This document shows, piece by piece, positions 55,606 through 64,000 of a stretch of 64,000 nucleotides of DNA. The translations under genes were made by a program, and so were the position numbers. Source of the DNA: Sulfitobacter sp. HI0040 (GTDB lineage Bacteria > Pseudomonadota > Alphaproteobacteria > Rhodobacterales > Rhodobacteraceae); the NCBI RefSeq assembly GCF_001634885.1, contig NZ_LWEX01000489.1, positions 1 through 64,000 of the forward strand, in the 5' to 3' direction. Under the pieces are notes generated by a model. It searched no databases. It was not told where the DNA came from and was given only the letters and a program-made list of their open reading frames with translations. Positions within the stretch are counted from its first letter, which is position 1. Each line of letters starts with the position of its first letter.

Positions 55606-56301
55606 TTGCTTAAGAAGGCCCTCGTAACAATTGTGCTTGTGCTGCTGCCCGGCCTCGCCTTAGCCGAAGCCATCCCGCGTGGCGGTCCCAACGATAGCCG
55701 GGTGCGCTTGGCCACCTACCAGGAGGATCAGGTCTACCGTCTCAGCGTCTCGCTCACCCATGTCACCACCATCGAGTTCGGCGAAGGCGAAAGCATCCGC
55801 TCGATCATCGCGGGCGACACGGAAGGCTTCGAGATCGACGGCGTACCCGGCGGTCAGGCCTTCGCGATCAAGCCGGTGGCGCGCGGGGTGCATACCAATG
55901 TGACCGTCTACACGAACAGGCGCAGTTATTACTTCAACGTCCAGGAGACCCGCAGCCCGACCTTCTACGTGGTGCAGTTCCGCTACCCTGAAGACAATGC
56001 ACGGCCCACGCGGGCCATCGCGGCGCAAGCGCCGAACTACAATTACGGTGCAAGCGCGCGGACCGAGTTCACCCCGGCACGTATCTGGGATGATGGAACG
56101 TTTACGTATTTCGAATTCCCGCGGAACGCGCCGGTGCCGGCGATCTTCCGCGTCGCGAATGGCCGGGAACGGACGGTCAACACGCAAGCCACCGAGGACG
56201 GCGTGATCCGGGTTTCAGGCGTGAACCGGCAATGGGTGCTGCGGATCGGGGAAGAGGTGGTCTGTATCGAGGCCACACCGCCTGCGGGAGTGGGATCATG
56301 A
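55606..56301 (+). CDS. virB9: VirB9-family protein
   Basis: A 231-aa periplasmic/outer-membrane-core protein. The signal peptide (ALVTIVLVLLPGLALAE) is followed by the CagX/VirB9 pattern: DSRVRLATYQEDQVYRL, HTNVTVYTNRRSYYF, then a C-terminal IWDDGTFTYFEFPRN motif that is nearly invariant in VirB9. TTG 55606 is the start, with TGGAGAA upstream; a longer frame overlapping virB8 is rejected. It overlaps virB10 by ATGA. Confidence 0.92.
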   Translation: MLKKALVTIVLVLLPGLALAEAIPRGGPNDSRVRLATYQEDQVYRLSVSLTHVTTIEFGEGESIRSIIAGDTEGFEIDGVPGGQAFAIKPVARGVHTNVTVYTNRRSYYFNVQETRSPTFYVVQFRYPEDNARPTRAIAAQAPNYNYGASARTEFTPARIWDDGTFTYFEFPRNAPVPAIFRVANGRERTVNTQATEDGVIRVSGVNRQWVLRIGEEVVCIEATPPAGVGS

Positions 56302-57677
56302 GCGACACAGAAAACGCGGACCTCAAAAAGCGCCTCGCTGCCCTAGAACAAGGCAAAGGTGCGAGCTCACCCCCTGCCCCACGGCGCTCACCGCTGCTCG
56401 CTTTGGTCGTCGTCCTCGTGATCGGGGCGGGTGGGGCGTTGCTCTATCTCCTCTCCCAGCCCGAGGAAGAAGAAGCCCTGCCCACGGCCACGCCGGATGT
56501 CTTCCAGAACGAAGGCGACGGGTTCGGCGCCATCGAAACCCTCCCTCCGCCTGAGCCAGAGGTGGTTCTGGTCTCGCCGGAACCGGTCGAACCAAATGCA
56601 GAGCTTCTGGCGCAGCTCGAAGCCCTGCAGGCCCAAATCGAGGAATTGCGCAACGCGCCAGAACCAGTGGTGGAAGAAGACACGGCTGCCGCCGAAGCCA
56701 TCGATGCGCTGACCGCCCAGATCGCCGCCCTGCAATCCGCCTCGGAAGCCGCACAGCAGCAGTTTCGCGAAGAGCTTACGGCACGCGACCGCGAGCTGGA
56801 GCAACTCCGCATGGACCTCGAACTTGCGCAGCTCGAAGCCAATCGCCCCCTTCCGGCACCCATCGGTCCCACCGAGGACGAGCTACGCGCGCGGGAAGAA
56901 GAAAGGCTCCGCCGCGAGGAGGAAGCAAGACGTCTCGCGGAACTTGAACGCCGCGCGGCGGAAGAACGTGCATTCCAAGAACGGCGCATCACCTCGCCCA
57001 CCATCGCCTTTGGCGGCTCGTCTGGCGCAAATGAGACGGCTCTGACTGAACGGACTTTTGGGGAGGTGACGGATTTCGTGCTGAATGGCGCGCTGCCCAC
57101 TTCAGTGACGCAAGCCGAAGTTATTGCCAATCCGTCCAACACCATCATCCAGGGCACGATGATCCAGGCCGTCATGGAAACCGCGCTCGACAGCTCCCTG
57201 CCCGGCCAGACCCGGGCCGTGGTGTCTGAGGATGTCTACAGCGTCGATGGAGCGCGCCTATTGATCCCACGCGGCTCCCGCCTCATCGGGCGCTACCGTT
57301 CCGGCGTCGATATCGCACAGCGCCGGGTTACGATCGCCTGGGACCGGATCATCCTGCCCGCGGGCCAAACCGTCCAGATCAGCTCCTTCGGCGGTGATGA
57401 ACTTGGCCGTTCGGGTGTCACCGGTTTCGTGGACACGCGCTTTGATGAGCGCTTTGGCTCGGCAGCGCTGATTTCACTGATCTCCGCCGCGCCTAGTGCA
57501 GCCGCTGCAAATGTGCAGGACGAAACCGCCGCGGATGTGCTCGAAGACGTGGGCGATGATTTGGCCGATGCCACGGATAGTGTGATTGGCGACTATCTTT
57601 TGATCGGGCCGTTCATCTATGTCGACCAGGGGGCGCGCGTCACCGTCATGGTCGACCGCGATCTGGAGATTTTCTGA
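56298..57677 (+). CDS. virB10: VirB10-family protein
   Basis: A 459-aa energy-transducing core protein. It has a short cytoplasmic tail and a membrane helix at about residues 33-53. A long acidic/coiled-coil periplasmic stretch (residues 80-240, rich in Glu, Gln, Arg) follows. The conserved TrbI domain contains TVVSEDVYSVDG-like and PRGSRLIGRYRSGVDIAQRR segments. ATG 56298 overlaps the virB9 stop. It spans both membranes and gates the channel. Confidence 0.92.
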   Translation: MSDTENADLKKRLAALEQGKGASSPPAPRRSPLLALVVVLVIGAGGALLYLLSQPEEEEALPTATPDVFQNEGDGFGAIETLPPPEPEVVLVSPEPVEPNAELLAQLEALQAQIEELRNAPEPVVEEDTAAAEAIDALTAQIAALQSASEAAQQQFREELTARDRELEQLRMDLELAQLEANRPLPAPIGPTEDELRAREEERLRREEEARRLAELERRAAEERAFQERRITSPTIAFGGSSGANETALTERTFGEVTDFVLNGALPTSVTQAEVIANPSNTIIQGTMIQAVMETALDSSLPGQTRAVVSEDVYSVDGARLLIPRGSRLIGRYRSGVDIAQRRVTIAWDRIILPAGQTVQISSFGGDELGRSGVTGFVDTRFDERFGSAALISLISAAPSAAAANVQDETAADVLEDVGDDLADATDSVIGDYLLIGPFIYVDQGARVTVMVDRDLEIF

Positions 57678-57681
57678 GCCC

Positions 57682-58668
57682 ATGTCGCTGAGTTATCTCC
57701 AGACCTCCCTCGACAGGATCAACGCTGCCGCCCGCGACGATGTCATCGAGATCTGCATCAACCCCGATGGCAGCTGCTGGGGAGAATTCCAGGGCGATCA
57801 CTTCATGCGAAAACTGGACCAGGTGTTGACCGCAACAGAAGTCAAAGACCTCGGCAACCAGATCGCCTCTTCCGCCAATACCACCATGAGCAAGGACCGC
57901 CCGATCGTCTCGGTCTCGATCACCTACAAGGGCCGCCCGATCCGGGCGCAGGTCATCACACCGCCTGCCGTGCTCTCGGCGATGTCGATCAGCCTGCGGT
58001 TCTTCTCGAGCCTGCCGCTTGACGGGATCGCGCTTGATTTCCTCTATGGCAAGGAACGAAAGCTCGAGGAACTCCGCCTCGAGAAAACCCGGGAACTGCG
58101 CGAAGTGGTGGCCGCGGGCATGATCGACGATGCGCTGGCCTTTTGCGTCAAAAACAAGCTCAACATGATCGTCTCTGGCGGCACCTCCACCGGCAAGACC
58201 GTGGCTGCGCGCAAGATCCTCGCCCACGTCCCTGTGGACGAACGGATCGTCACTATCGAGGAAGCCGCGGAGCTTCTGCCGACCCAACCAAACGCTGTCA
58301 CCCTCATCGCCAATCGCGACACGGAATTCCAGACCGCCGATGTGCTGCTCACCGCAACGCTGAGGATGCGCCCCGACCGGATCATCCTGGGCGAGGTGCG
58401 CGGCAAGGAAGCCATGACCTTTCTCGAGGCGATCAACACCGGCCATGGCGGGTCCATGACCACGCTGCATGCCGAGACCCCACAACTCGCCGTGCAGCGT
58501 CTCGCGATCGCGGCGCTCAAGACCGAGATCCCGATGACCTATGCCGACATGATCCAGTACATCGAGAACTCCATCGATGTGATCATCCAGGCCGGCCGCC
58601 ATGACGGAAAACGCGGCATCACCGAATTCTACCTCCCCGGCGCAACCGAGATTGGAGCTTCCCAATGA
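57682..58668 (+). CDS. virB11: VirB11-family ATPase
   Basis: A 328-aa hexameric secretion ATPase. Walker A SGGTSTGKT is near residue 163, followed by the Asp-box (TIEEAAELLP), Walker B region LRMRPDRIILGEVRG and the His-box TGHGGSMTTLHAE. All are intact. It starts 5 nt after virB10 and overlaps the next small gene by 4 bp. It switches the system between pilus building and transfer. Confidence 0.93.
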   Translation: MSLSYLQTSLDRINAAARDDVIEICINPDGSCWGEFQGDHFMRKLDQVLTATEVKDLGNQIASSANTTMSKDRPIVSVSITYKGRPIRAQVITPPAVLSAMSISLRFFSSLPLDGIALDFLYGKERKLEELRLEKTRELREVVAAGMIDDALAFCVKNKLNMIVSGGTSTGKTVAARKILAHVPVDERIVTIEEAAELLPTQPNAVTLIANRDTEFQTADVLLTATLRMRPDRIILGEVRGKEAMTFLEAINTGHGGSMTTLHAETPQLAVQRLAIAALKTEIPMTYADMIQYIENSIDVIIQAGRHDGKRGITEFYLPGATEIGASQ

Positions 58669-58853
58669 AGACCTTTGAATATGACATCCTGTTCTTCCAG
58701 GTAAAGAAGCAAAAGGACTACGACGCGATGCGATGTGCCTTAAATGAGCGCGGCGCGGAGGGGTGGGAAGTCATCACCGCCGAGGTAGGTGACTACGGCT
58801 ACACCACGTTCTTGAAGCGTGAATCTTTGGCTACGAAGGTAACTTCAGAGTGA
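58665..58853 (+). CDS. DUF4177-like small protein
   Basis: A 62-aa protein with the pattern FEYDILFFQVKKQKD...LNERGAEGWEVITAE...TTFLKRE, typical of DUF4177-like proteins. No function is known. It is translationally coupled to virB11 (4-bp overlap) and to the next secreted protein (stop and start share a base), so it belongs to the secretion operon. Confidence 0.75.
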   Translation: MKTFEYDILFFQVKKQKDYDAMRCALNERGAEGWEVITAEVGDYGYTTFLKRESLATKVTSE

Positions 58854-59254
58854 TGCGGGTCGTTGCGACGGCAAGCCTGCTCATCGTTCTCTACGCAACC
58901 GCTGGCGTCGCTGAACGGAACCTGATCCCAACGCTCGAAAACCAGCCAGATGTCTGTCCCGACCAGCCTCCAGAGCCACAGTGGATGCAAGGCATCGATG
59001 TACGCGAGTCCCACAAACGGCTCCTGATCCAACAAATCTATCGTGCGCAGAGCATGCAACGGATCGTTGAAGCCCAAAGCTGTGAATGTCCCACGCGGTA
59101 TCCGTCTTGGGACGCAGCTGAAGGCGACTTCGTCGAGCATTTCGCCGCATCTGACTACTGGGACATCGTGGAAGCGACGTCAGAATACCGACGGCAGGCA
59201 AATGAGCTTCGGCGCGAAGCCATGCCAATCTGCGAAGCTGCTGGAAACTGGTAG
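58853..59254 (+). CDS. Secreted hypothetical protein of the virB operon
   Basis: A 133-aa protein with a signal peptide (MRVVATASLLIVLYATAGVAE) and four Cys in the mature part (VCPD, SCECP, ICEA). It is otherwise acidic and helical. No family is recognised. It lies between virB11 and virB6, in the same transcript. It may be a periplasmic accessory or a VirB7-like stabiliser. ATG 58853 is preferred; GTG 58850 is directly in front. Confidence 0.72.
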   Translation: MRVVATASLLIVLYATAGVAERNLIPTLENQPDVCPDQPPEPQWMQGIDVRESHKRLLIQQIYRAQSMQRIVEAQSCECPTRYPSWDAAEGDFVEHFAASDYWDIVEATSEYRRQANELRREAMPICEAAGNW

Positions 59255-59260
59255 GGTTCC

Positions 59261-60340
59261 ATGAGCGTCGTCACTTACTTCGTGGAAACGGCTGAAGGCT
59301 ATCTCAATACCGCTGCTGAGACGCAATTTGGCGCGGTCGCCGCAACAGTCGGAACGATGCTCGTACTCGGCACCACACTCGTTGTCATTCTGGTTTTCAT
59401 CAACACGATCTACCAGTATCGCGCCATGGACGGGCGCACGGCCTTTTGGCTCGCCGTGAAAGTCGGGCTGATAGGCGCATTTGCAACGAACTGGGTGCAG
59501 TTCAACATCTTTGCTGCGGCGATCCTGAACGGGATCGACAGCATTGCTGGGTCGCTCGTGGCCTCAGTCGGCGGCGGTTCACCCGGCCCATCCGGCACCT
59601 TCGCAGAGGAGTTCGATGACTTGATCGCGGCGCTCGGGGACTATCTGAATGCCGCGGGGTCCGAACTGAACTGGATGGCCGGTGCCCTGTTGGACACCCT
59701 TGGGGTTTTGCTGCTCTCTATTCTCGGTGGCTTGGCGGCGTTTATCGTCGTTGCGTCCAGGCTCATGATCGCTCTGCTGATCGGGATTGCACCAATCATG
59801 ATCTTCCTGACCCTTTTTGAAGTGACCAAGGATTATTTTGCACGCTGGCTTTCGGCGCTGATCTCCTTCGCTATGTACCCAATCGTCGTTGCTGGCGTGT
59901 TCGCAACCATCACGGGTGTCTCGCGTGCGCTTCTTGCTGAATTGGGCGACCCGGAAGGCGCGTCCAACATCGGCGCGCTCATTCCGTTCTTCATGATGGT
60001 GCTAATGGCAAAGGGGTTCATCATAGCAACGCCCTTCCTGGTTCGAGCAATTTCAGGAAACATCATGATGCCAGCGCTCTCAGCCGGCTTCGGCGGCAGC
60101 TATGCCTTTGCCCGAGGGCTTGCAGGAAGCCAACAAGTCTACAACCGGTACGCCATCGGTGGTGCGACTGGCGCGGAATACGCAGCTCTGCGGGCGCGCC
60201 AATTCTTTGGTGTGCAAGCGTTGCCAAGCCGACCCAATTCAGCAGGCGGCCCAACCGCAGCTCCATCTGGTGACGGAGCCGGCACAGGAGCTCAAATGCT
60301 AGCACAGCTTTCTAGGTTGGGTCGTCTCGGCAAGCGGTGA
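59261..60340 (+). CDS. virB6: VirB6/TrbL-family inner-membrane protein
   Basis: A 359-aa polytopic membrane protein. There are about six hydrophobic segments, including LVLGTTLVVILVFINTIYQY near residue 35, LIGIAPIMIFLTLFE near residue 175 with the VirB6/TrbL pattern, and a central periplasmic Gly-rich loop. It forms the inner-membrane channel with VirB8 and VirB10. It is the last gene of the cluster, followed by a gap of about 220 bp. No VirD4 coupling protein or relaxase is visible in the window. Confidence 0.9.
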   Translation: MSVVTYFVETAEGYLNTAAETQFGAVAATVGTMLVLGTTLVVILVFINTIYQYRAMDGRTAFWLAVKVGLIGAFATNWVQFNIFAAAILNGIDSIAGSLVASVGGGSPGPSGTFAEEFDDLIAALGDYLNAAGSELNWMAGALLDTLGVLLLSILGGLAAFIVVASRLMIALLIGIAPIMIFLTLFEVTKDYFARWLSALISFAMYPIVVAGVFATITGVSRALLAELGDPEGASNIGALIPFFMMVLMAKGFIIATPFLVRAISGNIMMPALSAGFGGSYAFARGLAGSQQVYNRYAIGGATGAEYAALRARQFFGVQALPSRPNSAGGPTAAPSGDGAGTGAQMLAQLSRLGRLGKR

Positions 60341-60563
60341 TGGCCCGAAACGAAGTGGACATCTGCGCATCCCGTCAACGCAGCGGCGCAGGTTTTTTAA
60401 AGCAGACCATAGTCATTACTAGAATTTTGGCGATGCCTATTGCGGGACACAACATGTTGTTGAAAGGCTATCCTCGATCAACTATGTTGAGAACAAAGCG
60501 TAAACTTGTTCGATTCGGTGGGAGGCGCGTCACTCAGGTTTTCCAAGCTAAGGAGCAGTACTG
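60341..60563. other. Intergenic gap between virB6 and the MBL/E2-E1-JAB genes
   Basis: About 220 bp, visibly richer in A and T than the virB genes. The open frames here have no recognisable protein signal. No repeat or attachment site was recognised. It probably carries the promoter of the next operon; AAGGAG (60550-60555) is that operon's ribosome site. Confidence 0.5.
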
Positions 60564-61736
60564 ATGAGCGTCGAAACTTCGCATTTCAAAGTCGCCAATG
60601 GCGACATGAGCCTGATCAAAACCCAGAGTGGCCGTTATATACTCGTAGACATAAACATTACCGCCTCGGCTGACGACAAAGATGAGGATGTGCCTGATGT
60701 TGGGGCACAGCTTCGCAACGCGCTTGACCGTGACTGTGACGGACGTCTGTTTGTCGATGCATTCTTGCTGACGCATCCGGACATGGATCATTGCTCTGGA
60801 CTGCAGAACCATTTTCATCTCGGCAAAATTGAGGATTGGTCGCCCGAAGACGACAAAATCGTAATTCGCGAGATGTGGTCTTCCCCAATTGTTTTTAGAC
60901 GTGCCAGCAGTACCAACAATCTTTGCGCTGACGCAAAGGCTTGGGCGACAGAAGCGCGCCGGCGCGTTGAAATGTTCCGCCAGGACAAAGATATCGAAGA
61001 CGGAAGCAGAATTTTGATCCTGAGCGAGGATGCGGACGGCAAGACGGATGATTTGGCCGACATTCTGATCAAAACGGGCGAGACATTTTCCGAGATTTGC
61101 GGCGTAGCAGATGACAGTTTCAAGGCGGTCTTGTTGGCTCCGTTGCCGGTCACGGACGATGAAGACGAAGAAGAGTTGCTCAGCAAGAATAACTCTAGTG
61201 TCATCACTCAGTTTACGCTTGCGAAAGATGATACCGAAAACGCCGCCCAGTACCTGTTTGGTGGTGACGCCGAAGTGGCGATTTGGGAGAAAATATGGGC
61301 AGAGTATTCTGAAACTCCCGAGGTTCTTGCATATGATGTCTTGATCGCGCCCCATCATTGTTCCTGGCGGTCACTGTCGCACGACAGCTGGTCCAAAAAG
61401 GGAAAAGATGCGGTAGTTTCTGAAGATGCCCGATCAGCTCTTTCACAAGCAAACGACGGTGCAATAATCCTGGCGAGCAGTAAGAGTGTTGTAGACGACG
61501 ACAACGATCCGCCCTGTATCCGCGCAAAGGAAGAATATGAAGCCATTCTGAGCGAAGCGGAAATCAATGGGGAGTTCCGGTGTTTAGAGGACGAAAAAGG
61601 TGACAAGCCGCTAAAGATGGAAATCACCGAACATGGTCCAAAAGTCGCCTCCCTGAAAATGGCAGCCGCTATCTCTTCATCGTCCGCTCTTGGAGTCGAG
61701 GCACATGCTCATGGTTGTGGGTCAGACTTGGCATGA
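60564..61736 (+). CDS. MBL-fold hydrolase partnered with an E2-E1-JAB protein
   Basis: A 390-aa metallo-beta-lactamase-fold protein of the ComEC-like branch. The metal motif is THPDMDHCSG (His71, Asp73, Asp75, His76), with LFGGDAE and LIAPHHCSW later. The acidic stretch TDDEDEEELL near residue 205 is an insertion. It has no signal peptide, so it is cytoplasmic. Nine bases separate it from the E2-E1-JAB gene. Comparative-genomic work on prokaryotic ubiquitin-like systems has described MBL proteins beside such fused proteins; the substrate is unknown. Base composition is lower in GC than the virB genes, suggesting separate acquisition. Confidence 0.82.
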   Translation: MSVETSHFKVANGDMSLIKTQSGRYILVDINITASADDKDEDVPDVGAQLRNALDRDCDGRLFVDAFLLTHPDMDHCSGLQNHFHLGKIEDWSPEDDKIVIREMWSSPIVFRRASSTNNLCADAKAWATEARRRVEMFRQDKDIEDGSRILILSEDADGKTDDLADILIKTGETFSEICGVADDSFKAVLLAPLPVTDDEDEEELLSKNNSSVITQFTLAKDDTENAAQYLFGGDAEVAIWEKIWAEYSETPEVLAYDVLIAPHHCSWRSLSHDSWSKKGKDAVVSEDARSALSQANDGAIILASSKSVVDDDNDPPCIRAKEEYEAILSEAEINGEFRCLEDEKGDKPLKMEITEHGPKVASLKMAAAISSSSALGVEAHAHGCGSDLA

Positions 61737-61745
61737 GTCAGCTGC

Positions 61746-64000
61746 ATGGTAACCGTCGATGATCTTCTAGCCGTTCCCGTAGCCATTGCACGTGCAATTC
61801 GCACACTGGACAAGCACCCTCAAGTAATCGGCATAGCTCTTGCGTCGCGGGCTGATGACGATTGTCCGGTGGATGTGACTCTACAAATCAAAACGGAACT
61901 TCCATCTCGGTTTCGAGGCGAAAGCCCGTCGGGAGTACGACGTGTCGAGCCCGTCAAACTATCGTTTCCTGTCTCCTTCCCTCTGTTTGCACCGCGCCCG
62001 AGTTTACGGGACGACTTTGACCGGTCCCATCCTCACTTACAGCCAAGTGCAGCCGGTTCAGCGCCTGAACCGTGCCTCGTTTTCGGATCTCCACGTGAGC
62101 TAATTCAGTCCGGGGGCGGTATTCTTGCGCTTCTCCAGCAACTTCTGGACTGGCTCGATCGAGCAGCGATGCTGAAACTGAATGATCCAAAACATGGTTG
62201 GGAATTTGTTCGGCGTGACCACTTGAACGACCTTATTGTTGGAGATGCCTCGCAGATCCGGAGTGTAGTTAAACGTAGGTCCGGCGGGACTTGGCACCGT
62301 ACGTGGGTTTTTGCGCAGCTGGGTCAGTCCGACCCCTACTATCGAATCTGTCTAAAGGGCGATGAGCAGGTCAAAATTGATGAAAAGACACTGAAATCCC
62401 TTGGACAGGTCCCGAAAGGTGACAACGAATGGACGGGGTTTAGCCTCGGACTGATTGTCTGGCCCGGCAAGCATCCAAACGGAAAGCCAATCATCTGTGA
62501 CCGCTATCTTCCAGAGACAGTAAGCAACGTTGCTGAGTTATACGAACGCGCTGAACTCTACGGCTGCGGCAAGATGCTGGCAGAGAGGATGAAGTGGCTG
62601 CGTTCGAAGCTCGACGGCTATACCATCAAAAAGGCATTGCCAGTCACAGTGATATTGATCGCCCGCCGACCGTTCAATCTCATTGGCCAAGCCTCACCTC
62701 TTGAAATCTGCCCATATGTGATCGAATTCCAATCTGTGGATGACCTCAAGCCGACATCAAGTGCGATTGTCCGTTTGGCGGGCCACAGAGATTCGATCTC
62801 GATCGATGTCTTAAGAAGAACCTCACATGGTGATCCCAGCTCGCAATGGCTTTCATGGTCCATGCTAGGTTGTGGAAGCTTAGGTTCGAAAATTGCGATG
62901 CATCTCGCGCGGTCCGGCCGTGCCCCAATATCGGTCATAGACAACGACACCATGGAACCGCACAACTACGCGCGACATTCCTGCTTGCCGTATTCTGCTG
63001 ATTTGGATTCGATGTTCTACTCTTCCAAGGCTGGGGAATTTGCGCATGACGTCAGCAAACTTGCGCAGGAGTCGGATGGGTATCGGATTGATGCCAACAC
63101 TGTGCTGCGTACCAAAGAGCTTCGCAGAAAGCTGAAGCTCGAAAAATCCAAAGCAATATTGAACACTACCGCCTCTGCGGTTTTGCGGGAAACCTTGAGC
63201 TATACAGATTGGGCGAAGGGCAAGACACCACGGGTGATGGAAGCAAGCCTAATGGGTGATAGTGACATTGGTTTCTTCTCGGTGTCAGGCCAGAGCGCCA
63301 ACCCCAGTAGCAGCGACCTGATGACCGAGTTTTATCACCATTTACGGAGCGACGACGCACTCCGATCTAAAGTGATGGGCCAAAGCGCTGACGAGATCAT
63401 CATTGGTCAAGGATGCTCGAGCTTCTCGATGATTGCCTCAGACACTCGGCATTCTATGATGGCGGCTCCGCTCGCGAAGCTGACAAGCGACGTGCTTTCC
63501 GGGAGTTATGTAGATGAAAGTGGGCAATTCAACATTGGGCACCTGCAGGCCGATGGTCTTTCCCAGAATTGGGAAAGCCATACCGTTGAACCCTATACCA
63601 TCGTAAAAGGACCCAAGATGGGCGCGCTTGAAACGCGGCTTGCCAGCCGGGTTACGATAGAAATTGAAGCTGAAATTGCGCGCAAGCCGGGATCTGAAAC
63701 CGGCGGTGTTTTGGTCGGGCGCTTCTCGGCCATCGGTAACGTCTTTCAAGTCGTAGATACGATTCCAGCTCCGCCCGATAGCAGATTTTCTAAAACGGAG
63801 TTTGTTCTGGGTACCGAAGGTTTGAGTGATCAGCTCGCACAATTATCCAAGTCTTCGGGAAACACTCTCTACCCGCTGGGAACATGGCACAATCACCTTG
63901 CGTCCACGGGTCCCTCTGCAACTGATTTCAGTACAGCGGCCAAGCTTGCAATTGGACAGCTGTTTCCCGTTCTGATGATTATCAGAACCCCAACTGGGTA
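61746..64000 (+). CDS. Fused E2-like / E1 (ThiF) / JAB protein, 3' end missing
   Basis: At least 751 aa, cut by the right window edge. The N-terminal part (residues about 1-140) resembles an E2 fold with an HPH segment (residues 95-97) and a candidate active-site Cys110 in PEPCLVFG. The middle is an E1/ThiF adenylation domain with the nucleotide loop LGCGSLGSK (residues 374-382) and VIDNDTMEPHNYARH. The C-terminal JAB/JAMM peptidase domain has Glu651, His715, His717 and Ser724-X2-Asp727 in the canonical order. One protein could thus activate, conjugate and remove a ubiquitin-like modifier. No modifier gene is seen upstream; it could lie beyond the edge. ATG 61746 is the start, 9 nt after the MBL stop. 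Confidence 0.88.
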   Translation, partial: MVTVDDLLAVPVAIARAIRTLDKHPQVIGIALASRADDDCPVDVTLQIKTELPSRFRGESPSGVRRVEPVKLSFPVSFPLFAPRPSLRDDFDRSHPHLQPSAAGSAPEPCLVFGSPRELIQSGGGILALLQQLLDWLDRAAMLKLNDPKHGWEFVRRDHLNDLIVGDASQIRSVVKRRSGGTWHRTWVFAQLGQSDPYYRICLKGDEQVKIDEKTLKSLGQVPKGDNEWTGFSLGLIVWPGKHPNGKPIICDRYLPETVSNVAELYERAELYGCGKMLAERMKWLRSKLDGYTIKKALPVTVILIARRPFNLIGQASPLEICPYVIEFQSVDDLKPTSSAIVRLAGHRDSISIDVLRRTSHGDPSSQWLSWSMLGCGSLGSKIAMHLARSGRAPISVIDNDTMEPHNYARHSCLPYSADLDSMFYSSKAGEFAHDVSKLAQESDGYRIDANTVLRTKELRRKLKLEKSKAILNTTASAVLRETLSYTDWAKGKTPRVMEASLMGDSDIGFFSVSGQSANPSSSDLMTEFYHHLRSDDALRSKVMGQSADEIIIGQGCSSFSMIASDTRHSMMAAPLAKLTSDVLSGSYVDESGQFNIGHLQADGLSQNWESHTVEPYTIVKGPKMGALETRLASRVTIEIEAEIARKPGSETGGVLVGRFSAIGNVFQVVDTIPAPPDSRFSKTEFVLGTEGLSDQLAQLSKSSGNTLYPLGTWHNHLASTGPSATDFSTAAKLAIGQLFPVLMIIRTPTG

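Follow-up and report, generated by a model that had tools for sequence, protein, structure and literature searches.

A 6A-MBL operon in Sulfitobacter sp. HI0040 and the conserved glycine tail of its MBL-fold enzyme, the probable conjugated protein

The stretch analysed here, referred to as the window, comprises the first 64,000 nucleotides of contig NZ_LWEX01000489.1 (C489; 89,496 bp) of the alphaproteobacterium Sulfitobacter sp. HI0040 and ends in an operon for a metallo-beta-lactamase (MBL)-fold enzyme and a protein in which E2, E1 and JAB domains are fused. The operon itself is not new: both proteins pass the curated cut-offs of the 6A-MBL system in NCBIfam (release of June 2026), their genes are adjacent and the pair corresponds to operon type 6a, which makes it a member of this named system. 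The MBL scores 416.1 bits against NF058524 ("anti-phage 6A-MBL system MBL-fold protein"; cut-off 220) and its partner 567.1 bits against NF058523 ("6A-MBL cap2_3"; cut-off 320), and these names support the link to phage defence proposed in a first-pass annotation of the sequence. The NCBIfam families differ from the locus in two respects, as the MBL model match stops before the C-terminal tail and a third gene matches no family. This tail holds a conserved glycine. It is quite likely that the MBL-fold enzyme takes the part of ubiquitin, as the second kind of protein without a beta-grasp fold to do so. It would be an active hydrolase, in many cases synthesised as a precursor, and its C-terminal Gly would be conjugated by a self-contained E2-E1-JAB protein with specificity for the tail of its subtype (HG or RAG); a swappable membrane or lipase effector would act with it.

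The two open reading frames (ORFs) named in the first-pass annotation are present, 9 nt apart. The second is open at the window end (Table 1), which it overruns by 64 bases to a stop at contig position 64064, resulting in a full protein of 772 aa. A third gene (64082-64804), outside the window, follows on the same strand after 17 nt and encodes a 240-aa predicted membrane protein. Within the E2-E1-JAB protein, Pfam matches are arranged in the order Prok-E2_A (4.7e-22; residues 15-172), ThiF (7.4e-08; 372-413) and Prok-JAB (4.7e-05; 640-747), the last with 23.7 bits slightly below the cut-off of 25. The catalytic residues that had been read from the sequence, Cys110 of E2 and Glu651, His715, His717 and Asp727 of the JAMM site, were found at precisely these positions. 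Together with Cys557, which is likely the E1 cysteine, they show no variation across 45 aligned sequences of this subtype (window included), and each of the six is conserved in 88 or 89 of the subtype's 89 proteins.

The AlphaFold2 model of the E2-E1-JAB protein is confident (pLDDT 90.2, pTM 0.84), and its sole low-confidence stretch, residues 553-559, is the loop that holds Cys557. The best match in the PDB is Cap2 of type II CBASS (cyclic-oligonucleotide-based anti-phage signalling system), in a complex with a non-ubiquitin substrate (7to3_A; Foldseek E 4.1e-26). A VIA comparison to this chain gave a Z of 24.1 with 516 aligned residues across model residues 5-614 and hardly covered the JAB part. 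The match spans the E2 domain and the linking region in addition to E1, and the absence of an E2-like fold, which would have spoken against the first-pass annotation, was not observed. BubCD is also among the fold matches, and the E1 domain is distantly related to ThiF, which ranks behind Cap2 as the closest fold. The predicted fold of the E2-E1 part resembles that of Cap2 in type II CBASS.

The MBL-fold enzyme was annotated with an intact metal site, and its motifs THPDMDH, GGDAE and APHHCS are indeed whole; residues H71, D73, D75, H76, D235, H264 and H265 are invariant in 19 aligned MBLs, window included. By sequence match the site is ComEC-like, which makes the MBL probably a phosphodiesterase or nuclease. 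The NCBIfam model match ends at residue 358 and is followed by a low-complexity stretch of variable length that is judged to be disordered. The sole invariant residue of this tail in the 19 aligned MBLs is Gly384 (..VEAHAHG-CGSDLA), after which six more residues follow; being residue 384 of 390, this Gly is not terminal in the window copy, and the partner enzyme is an MBL and not a cyclase. A search for publications on the MBL tail or the name 6A-MBL retrieved nothing in print, which is weak evidence of absence, as bioRxiv was outside its coverage and few subscription papers were within it; a description of the tail may already have appeared under the name 6A-MBL.

The conservation of the tail was assessed in a larger set, for which more MBLs were gathered with a pattern placed far from the tail. 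A total of 110 MBLs was reduced to 76 at 85% identity and, after removal of three weak ones without an E2-E1-JAB protein (L036-L038), to 73. Among these non-redundant MBLs with an E2-E1-JAB neighbour, [HYF]G or RAG occurs no more than seven residues from the C-terminus in 71, compared to a mean of 6.25 and a maximum of 15 of 73 when 30-residue tails were shuffled 1000 times, and Gly is the last residue in 48 of the 73. An extension after the Gly is absent in 47/74 tails and 1-7 residues long in 27/74, which suggests precursors that the JAB domain of the fusion protein would trim. In one relative of the window copy, the extension is changed (HG-CRNKDS) and the HG is kept. A separate sample of 398 genomes from the phylum of the window was searched with the NCBIfam model, which lacks the tail, and all seven MBLs over the cut-off show the tail motif; one of the seven is the window's own copy and some are close to loci already in the set. 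As a control, a second MBL family (PADLOC PDC-M48B, a candidate defence family) was analysed, in which the tail motif is present in 0/18 proteins and none ends in Gly; 12 of the 18 come from loci that also hold an E2-E1-JAB protein. For this control set, two C-incomplete fragments were dropped and redundancy was removed only by identical last 60 residues.

MBLs of the PDC-M48B type are paired with the same membrane-protein family as 6A-MBL, forming two-gene units that stand alone (L026, L119-L122, L125, L127) or lie inside 6A loci (L050, L086, L092, L099, L102, L108). The solo units have neither E2-E1-JAB nor a Gly tail. An interpretation of these pairs as a tail-less "type I" of the same MBL was rejected, as a different MBL family is involved, and for the same reason they serve as a control and do not prove a split into types I and II.

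The type of tail follows the subtype of the E2-E1-JAB protein. These proteins from 107 loci fall into four clusters (E0-E3): the MBL tails are HG, YG or FG in 89/89 members of cluster E0, RAG in 13/14 of cluster E1 (RSG in the remaining one) and YG or FG in 2/2 of cluster E2, and cluster E3 consists of two near-identical Acetobacter loci in which the MBL ends in GFA and an E2-E1 protein has its JAB match in a separate frame. Median identity of the MBL bodies is 55.7% within the HG/YG/FG group and 53.0% between the RAG and HG/YG/FG groups. As these values are about equal, the tail differs with the E2-E1-JAB subtype despite similar enzymes. In a tree of the 73 MBL bodies, an 11-row RAG clade is placed amid HG rows, and the four tail labels require 5 changes compared to a mean of 18.1 after shuffling.

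A survey of gene neighbourhoods, suggested in the first-pass annotation, revealed an E2-E1-type neighbour in all 107 loci with an MBL of the window's family above 200 bits, and the pairing is not a chance association. For the 86 loci that were fetched with the MBL as query this result is not circular; the other 21 were obtained via the E2-E1-JAB protein, the membrane protein or the window itself. From 387 confirmed genome loci the best 80 were taken, and these lean to relatives of the window MBL; L031 and L124 were set aside as duplicates. The spread of the operon is patchy, as only 7 of the 398 genomes contain an MBL over the cut-off; a half-length MBL in G601, below the cut-off, was set aside. 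Six cap2_3 matches over the cut-off, own copy included, are all located beside such an MBL. Next to an MBL over the cut-off (G423:C1 791425-797152, within L196), the E2-E1-JAB match is in two pieces about 2.4 kb apart and perhaps represents an interrupted copy.

Bacterial machinery of the E1/E2/JAB type is also found in Bil and Bub systems, which use ubiquitin-like modifiers. In contrast to these, a Pfam search and a reading of the ORFs identified no gene for a ubiquitin-like modifier among the three genes of the operon. A ubiquitin-like protein or nucleotidyltransferase (NTase) had been sought beyond position 64000; neither is there, and the membrane-protein gene is followed by conjugation genes. 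The first-pass annotation saw no modifier gene, but this absence is probably only apparent: given the conserved C-terminal Gly tail, the MBL protein itself probably takes the modifier's place, and a machine for conjugation that lacks ubiquitin is most simply explained in this way. Operon type 6a (Iyer, Burroughs and Aravind, 2006, PMC1779556) was described from Proteobacteria and one Gram-positive as a usually two-gene arrangement in which a specialised MBL adjoins a protein with the three modules E2, E1 and JAB. The same domain order in one protein next to an MBL is present in the window, whereas the available portion of that description contains no MBL role, tail or membrane protein. Type II CBASS shares with the operon the predicted Cap2-like E2-E1 fold, a JAB domain, genes for membrane proteins or lipases in linkage and, in relatives of the window copy, regulator genes of the WYL or ImmA type. 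The C-terminus of the MBL, with a conserved Gly as its last residue or close to the end, is similar to that of the cyclase. The operon differs in that its three genes include no CD-NTase, whose place is taken by the MBL, in that JAB is fused to E1 instead of forming a separate Cap3, and in that the tail Gly of the MBL often carries a short extension. The C-terminal Gly/Ala of the type II CBASS cyclase is kept only in operons with Cap2 and Cap3, and it is conjugated after being loaded on Cap2 (PMC10097602). In a system from Bacillus, PspA is the protein to which the cyclase is joined and from which Cap3 frees it (PMC11153139).

A possible effector beyond the window end had also been anticipated, and the third gene, without a family match, is a candidate for this role by linkage. 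Of 75 representative loci, 66 encode a protein from one of four families of predicted membrane proteins; the largest of these families, with a conserved YGFRRN-like motif, accounts for 42/75, and lipase homologues occur in 9/75 (7 of the DUF2235/Tle1 type and 2 of the patatin type). Effector families were counted anywhere in the locus and not just in the third-gene slot, and loci cut by contig ends count as misses. The model of the membrane protein is confident (pLDDT 94) and all-helical. Beside the patatin-type operon of a same-genus relative lies a further MBL-fold gene (L008 6774-8003; Pfam Lactamase_B), probably the LmuA-like PADLOC match. Divergent regulator genes are located upstream in 39 of the 69 representatives with enough flank, of which 23 encode WYL proteins and 16 ImmA/IrrE-type peptidases, as counted by HMMER searches seeded from annotated examples (seeds checked by Pfam) and without a separate tally of the helix-turn-helix partner of the ImmA-type gene. 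This placement resembles that of CapW, an upstream regulator on the opposite strand (PMC9122588), and of CapH+CapP (PMC13373217), which control CBASS and other immune operons. Some Rhizobiaceae loci contain an NTase-WYL pair upstream of the operon; the NTase was not adopted as a cyclase and the pair is treated as regulatory.

Judging from the domain set, the conserved catalytic residues, the predicted Cap2-like fold, the conservation of the tail and its match to the E2-E1-JAB subtype, the linked membrane-protein and lipase genes and the types of regulators, the operon is likely to be of an immune type and to operate in the manner of type II CBASS, with an MBL-fold hydrolase in the place of the cyclase. 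For conjugation itself, trimming, target, MBL substrate, effector action and defence by the window copy, we infer the following steps. Where an extension exists, the JAB domain would trim the C-terminus of the MBL and expose the conserved Gly (Gly384). The E1 domain would adenylate this residue, and the MBL would be passed via Cys557 and Cys110 and conjugated to a target, from which the JAB domain could release it again. The conjugation state would set the activity or location of the MBL, and the state of the MBL would trigger the membrane protein (in some relatives perhaps a lipase), and this effector would damage the membrane of the infected cell.

Several alternatives were considered. The MBL could be only an enzyme, acting as a sensor or effector hydrolase, with a tail used for docking, and the E2-E1-JAB protein could conjugate a ThiS/MoaD-like modifier that the host encodes elsewhere. 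Proteins of the ThiS/MoaD type are present in most bacteria, and the relation of the E1 domain to ThiF, if distant, would fit; yet Cap2 is the closer fold, and a docking tail would be required neither to retain a Gly at or close to its end, as in 71/73 MBLs, nor to switch its type with the E2-E1-JAB subtype, so that this explanation is regarded as unlikely. ThiF and JAB domains also occur in the synthesis of thiamine, molybdopterin and cysteine, and an ordinary metabolic pathway of this kind had been named as an outcome that would refute the first-pass annotation. The neighbours, however, are conjugation genes and a membrane protein, the protein includes an E2 domain and a Cap2-like predicted fold and the distribution is patchy, which renders a metabolic role highly improbable. 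A somewhat better, if still small, chance is given to a stress or plasmid-maintenance pathway in place of phage immunity, in which MBL conjugation could still have a regulatory function: the operon is often found on plasmids, and according to a 2026 paper, Bub operons, in which regulators of these types can occur, were not shown to give protection against phage (PMC13373217). This is countered by the anti-phage label of both proteins in NCBIfam, by restriction-modification genes that adjoin the operon in L013 and L020 and by copies on contigs of a viral collection. Finally, the tail Gly could be a feature of the nucleotide sequence, such as a Shine-Dalgarno element or translational coupling, given that the MBL stop is located no more than 80 nt from the next coding sequence in 64/75 representatives (by a homology proxy). 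Its codons (GGC 30, GGA 17, GGT 16 and GGG 11 of 74) are used at background proportions (0.43, 0.19, 0.20 and 0.18), which points to a feature of the protein and not of a ribosome-binding site. As both His codons are used, the spacing to the next gene varies and HG and RAG differ by partner type, an origin at the nucleotide level is scarcely credible.

Other observations weigh against conjugation of the MBL in a CBASS-like immune operon. Two MBL tails without the motif as defined end in ..VRSG and ..PAGFA, and two of the three weak MBLs without E2-E1-JAB (47-60 bits; L037 and L038) also end in Gly, so that a terminal Gly by itself is not specific. Trimming must be assumed, because Cap2 substrates end at Gly/Ala and 27/74 MBL tails, including that of the window, run on. 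Both the disorder of the tail and the ComEC likeness of the metal site were judged from sequence alone. The clusters of E2-E1-JAB proteins depend on loose single linkage; in the tree, support is weak at several forks around the RAG clade, and long branches carry the distant rows L010 and L123 (the latter with a RAG tail). The membrane protein has no family match in Pfam, NCBIfam, PADLOC or PDB (its model returned no PDB match at E 0.001 or better), for which reason its effector role is argued from linkage. The window copy has neither a WYL nor an ImmA-type regulator gene upstream, and the MBL had no match in a collection of annotated phages.

The operon was proposed to be mobile cargo beside a conjugative locus, and its setting bears this out. 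It directly follows a virB10-virB11-virB6-like run at the end of a virB-type conjugation cluster, and genes for a TraG/VirD4-like protein and a relaxase lie beyond the third gene on the opposite strand, convergent to the operon. The G+C content is 0.521 in 60564-64000 and 0.606 in 1-60340. In a plasmid search with 56100-64000, one of the 30 best records, the conjugative (MPF_T) Sagittula plasmid p6, matches throughout, operon included; it is annotated with the same gene order and its E2-E1-JAB protein is 94% identical. The similarity of the other 29 records extends only to 60216-60351, to the 3' end of virB6 or close to it. The position around 60340 looks like a cargo site of this plasmid family, occupied by 6A-MBL here and in Sagittula; in two of the 29 records, L134 and L135, the same site contains an S41 peptidase or alpha/beta hydrolase gene and a tyrosine recombinase (integrase) gene. 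An MBL of the 6A type and E2-E1-JAB are encoded together on contigs of the IMG/VR viral collection (L027, L029, L030, L032-L035), so that phages or proviruses may be further carriers of the operon. A subtilisin-like S8 protease and an AAA ATPase are encoded side by side beyond the window, at 72757-76344 of contig C489 (L006 9758-13345, - strand). A similar-looking pair was read from ORFs near the 6A operon of G029 (L010 1337-4674), and an ATP-binding protein and an S8 peptidase are annotated beside the 6A operon of Hymenobacter (L025); this is possibly a separate two-gene unit that travels with the 6A operon.

Table 1. Coordinates of the operon, its domains and tail, and the gene preceding the presumed cargo site (window positions)
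Feature	Position	Strand	Evidence
MBL-fold protein, 390 aa, 6A-MBL enzyme, proposed conjugated modifier	60564..61736	+	NCBIfam NF058524 416 bits (cut-off 220); metal motif intact
Low-complexity C-terminal tail of the MBL, ~residues 363-390	61650..61733	+	Variable linker in alignment; NCBIfam model match stops at residue 358
Gly384 codon, conserved tail Gly (HAHG, then CGSDLA)	61713..61715	+	Invariant in 19/19 MBLs; motif in 71/73 non-redundant MBLs
Six-residue extension after Gly, proposed to be removed by JAB	61716..61733	+	Extension absent in 47/74 tails, 1-7 residues in 27/74; relative has HG-CRNKDS
E2-E1-JAB (Cap2-Cap3-like) protein, cut by window end	61746..64000	+	NCBIfam NF058523 567 bits (cut-off 320)
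E2 domain, Cys110 codon 62073-62075	61746..62168	+	Prok-E2_A; Cap2-like fold (predicted); C110 invariant in 45
E1/ThiF adenylation domain, Cys557 codon 63414-63416	62796..63587	+	ThiF; Cap2 E1 chains Z ~24; C557 invariant in 45
JAB/JAMM domain (Glu651, His715, His717, Asp727), cut by window end	63618..64000	+	Prok-JAB; residues invariant in 45
VirB6-like protein of a type IV secretion system, last gene common to related plasmids before the cargo site	59261..60340	+	Similarity ends at 60216-60351 in 29 of the 30 best plasmid records; Sagittula p6 continues through the operon

If the MBL is conjugated, it would be a second, unrelated member of the non-beta-grasp proteins that are used as ubiquitin, and the tagging of proteins in bacterial immunity would become a means of enzyme control of more general use. 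For the MBL of an operon type known since 2006, this would provide a role that is testable by single mutations, and the HG and RAG tails would provide a natural test of E1-substrate specificity.

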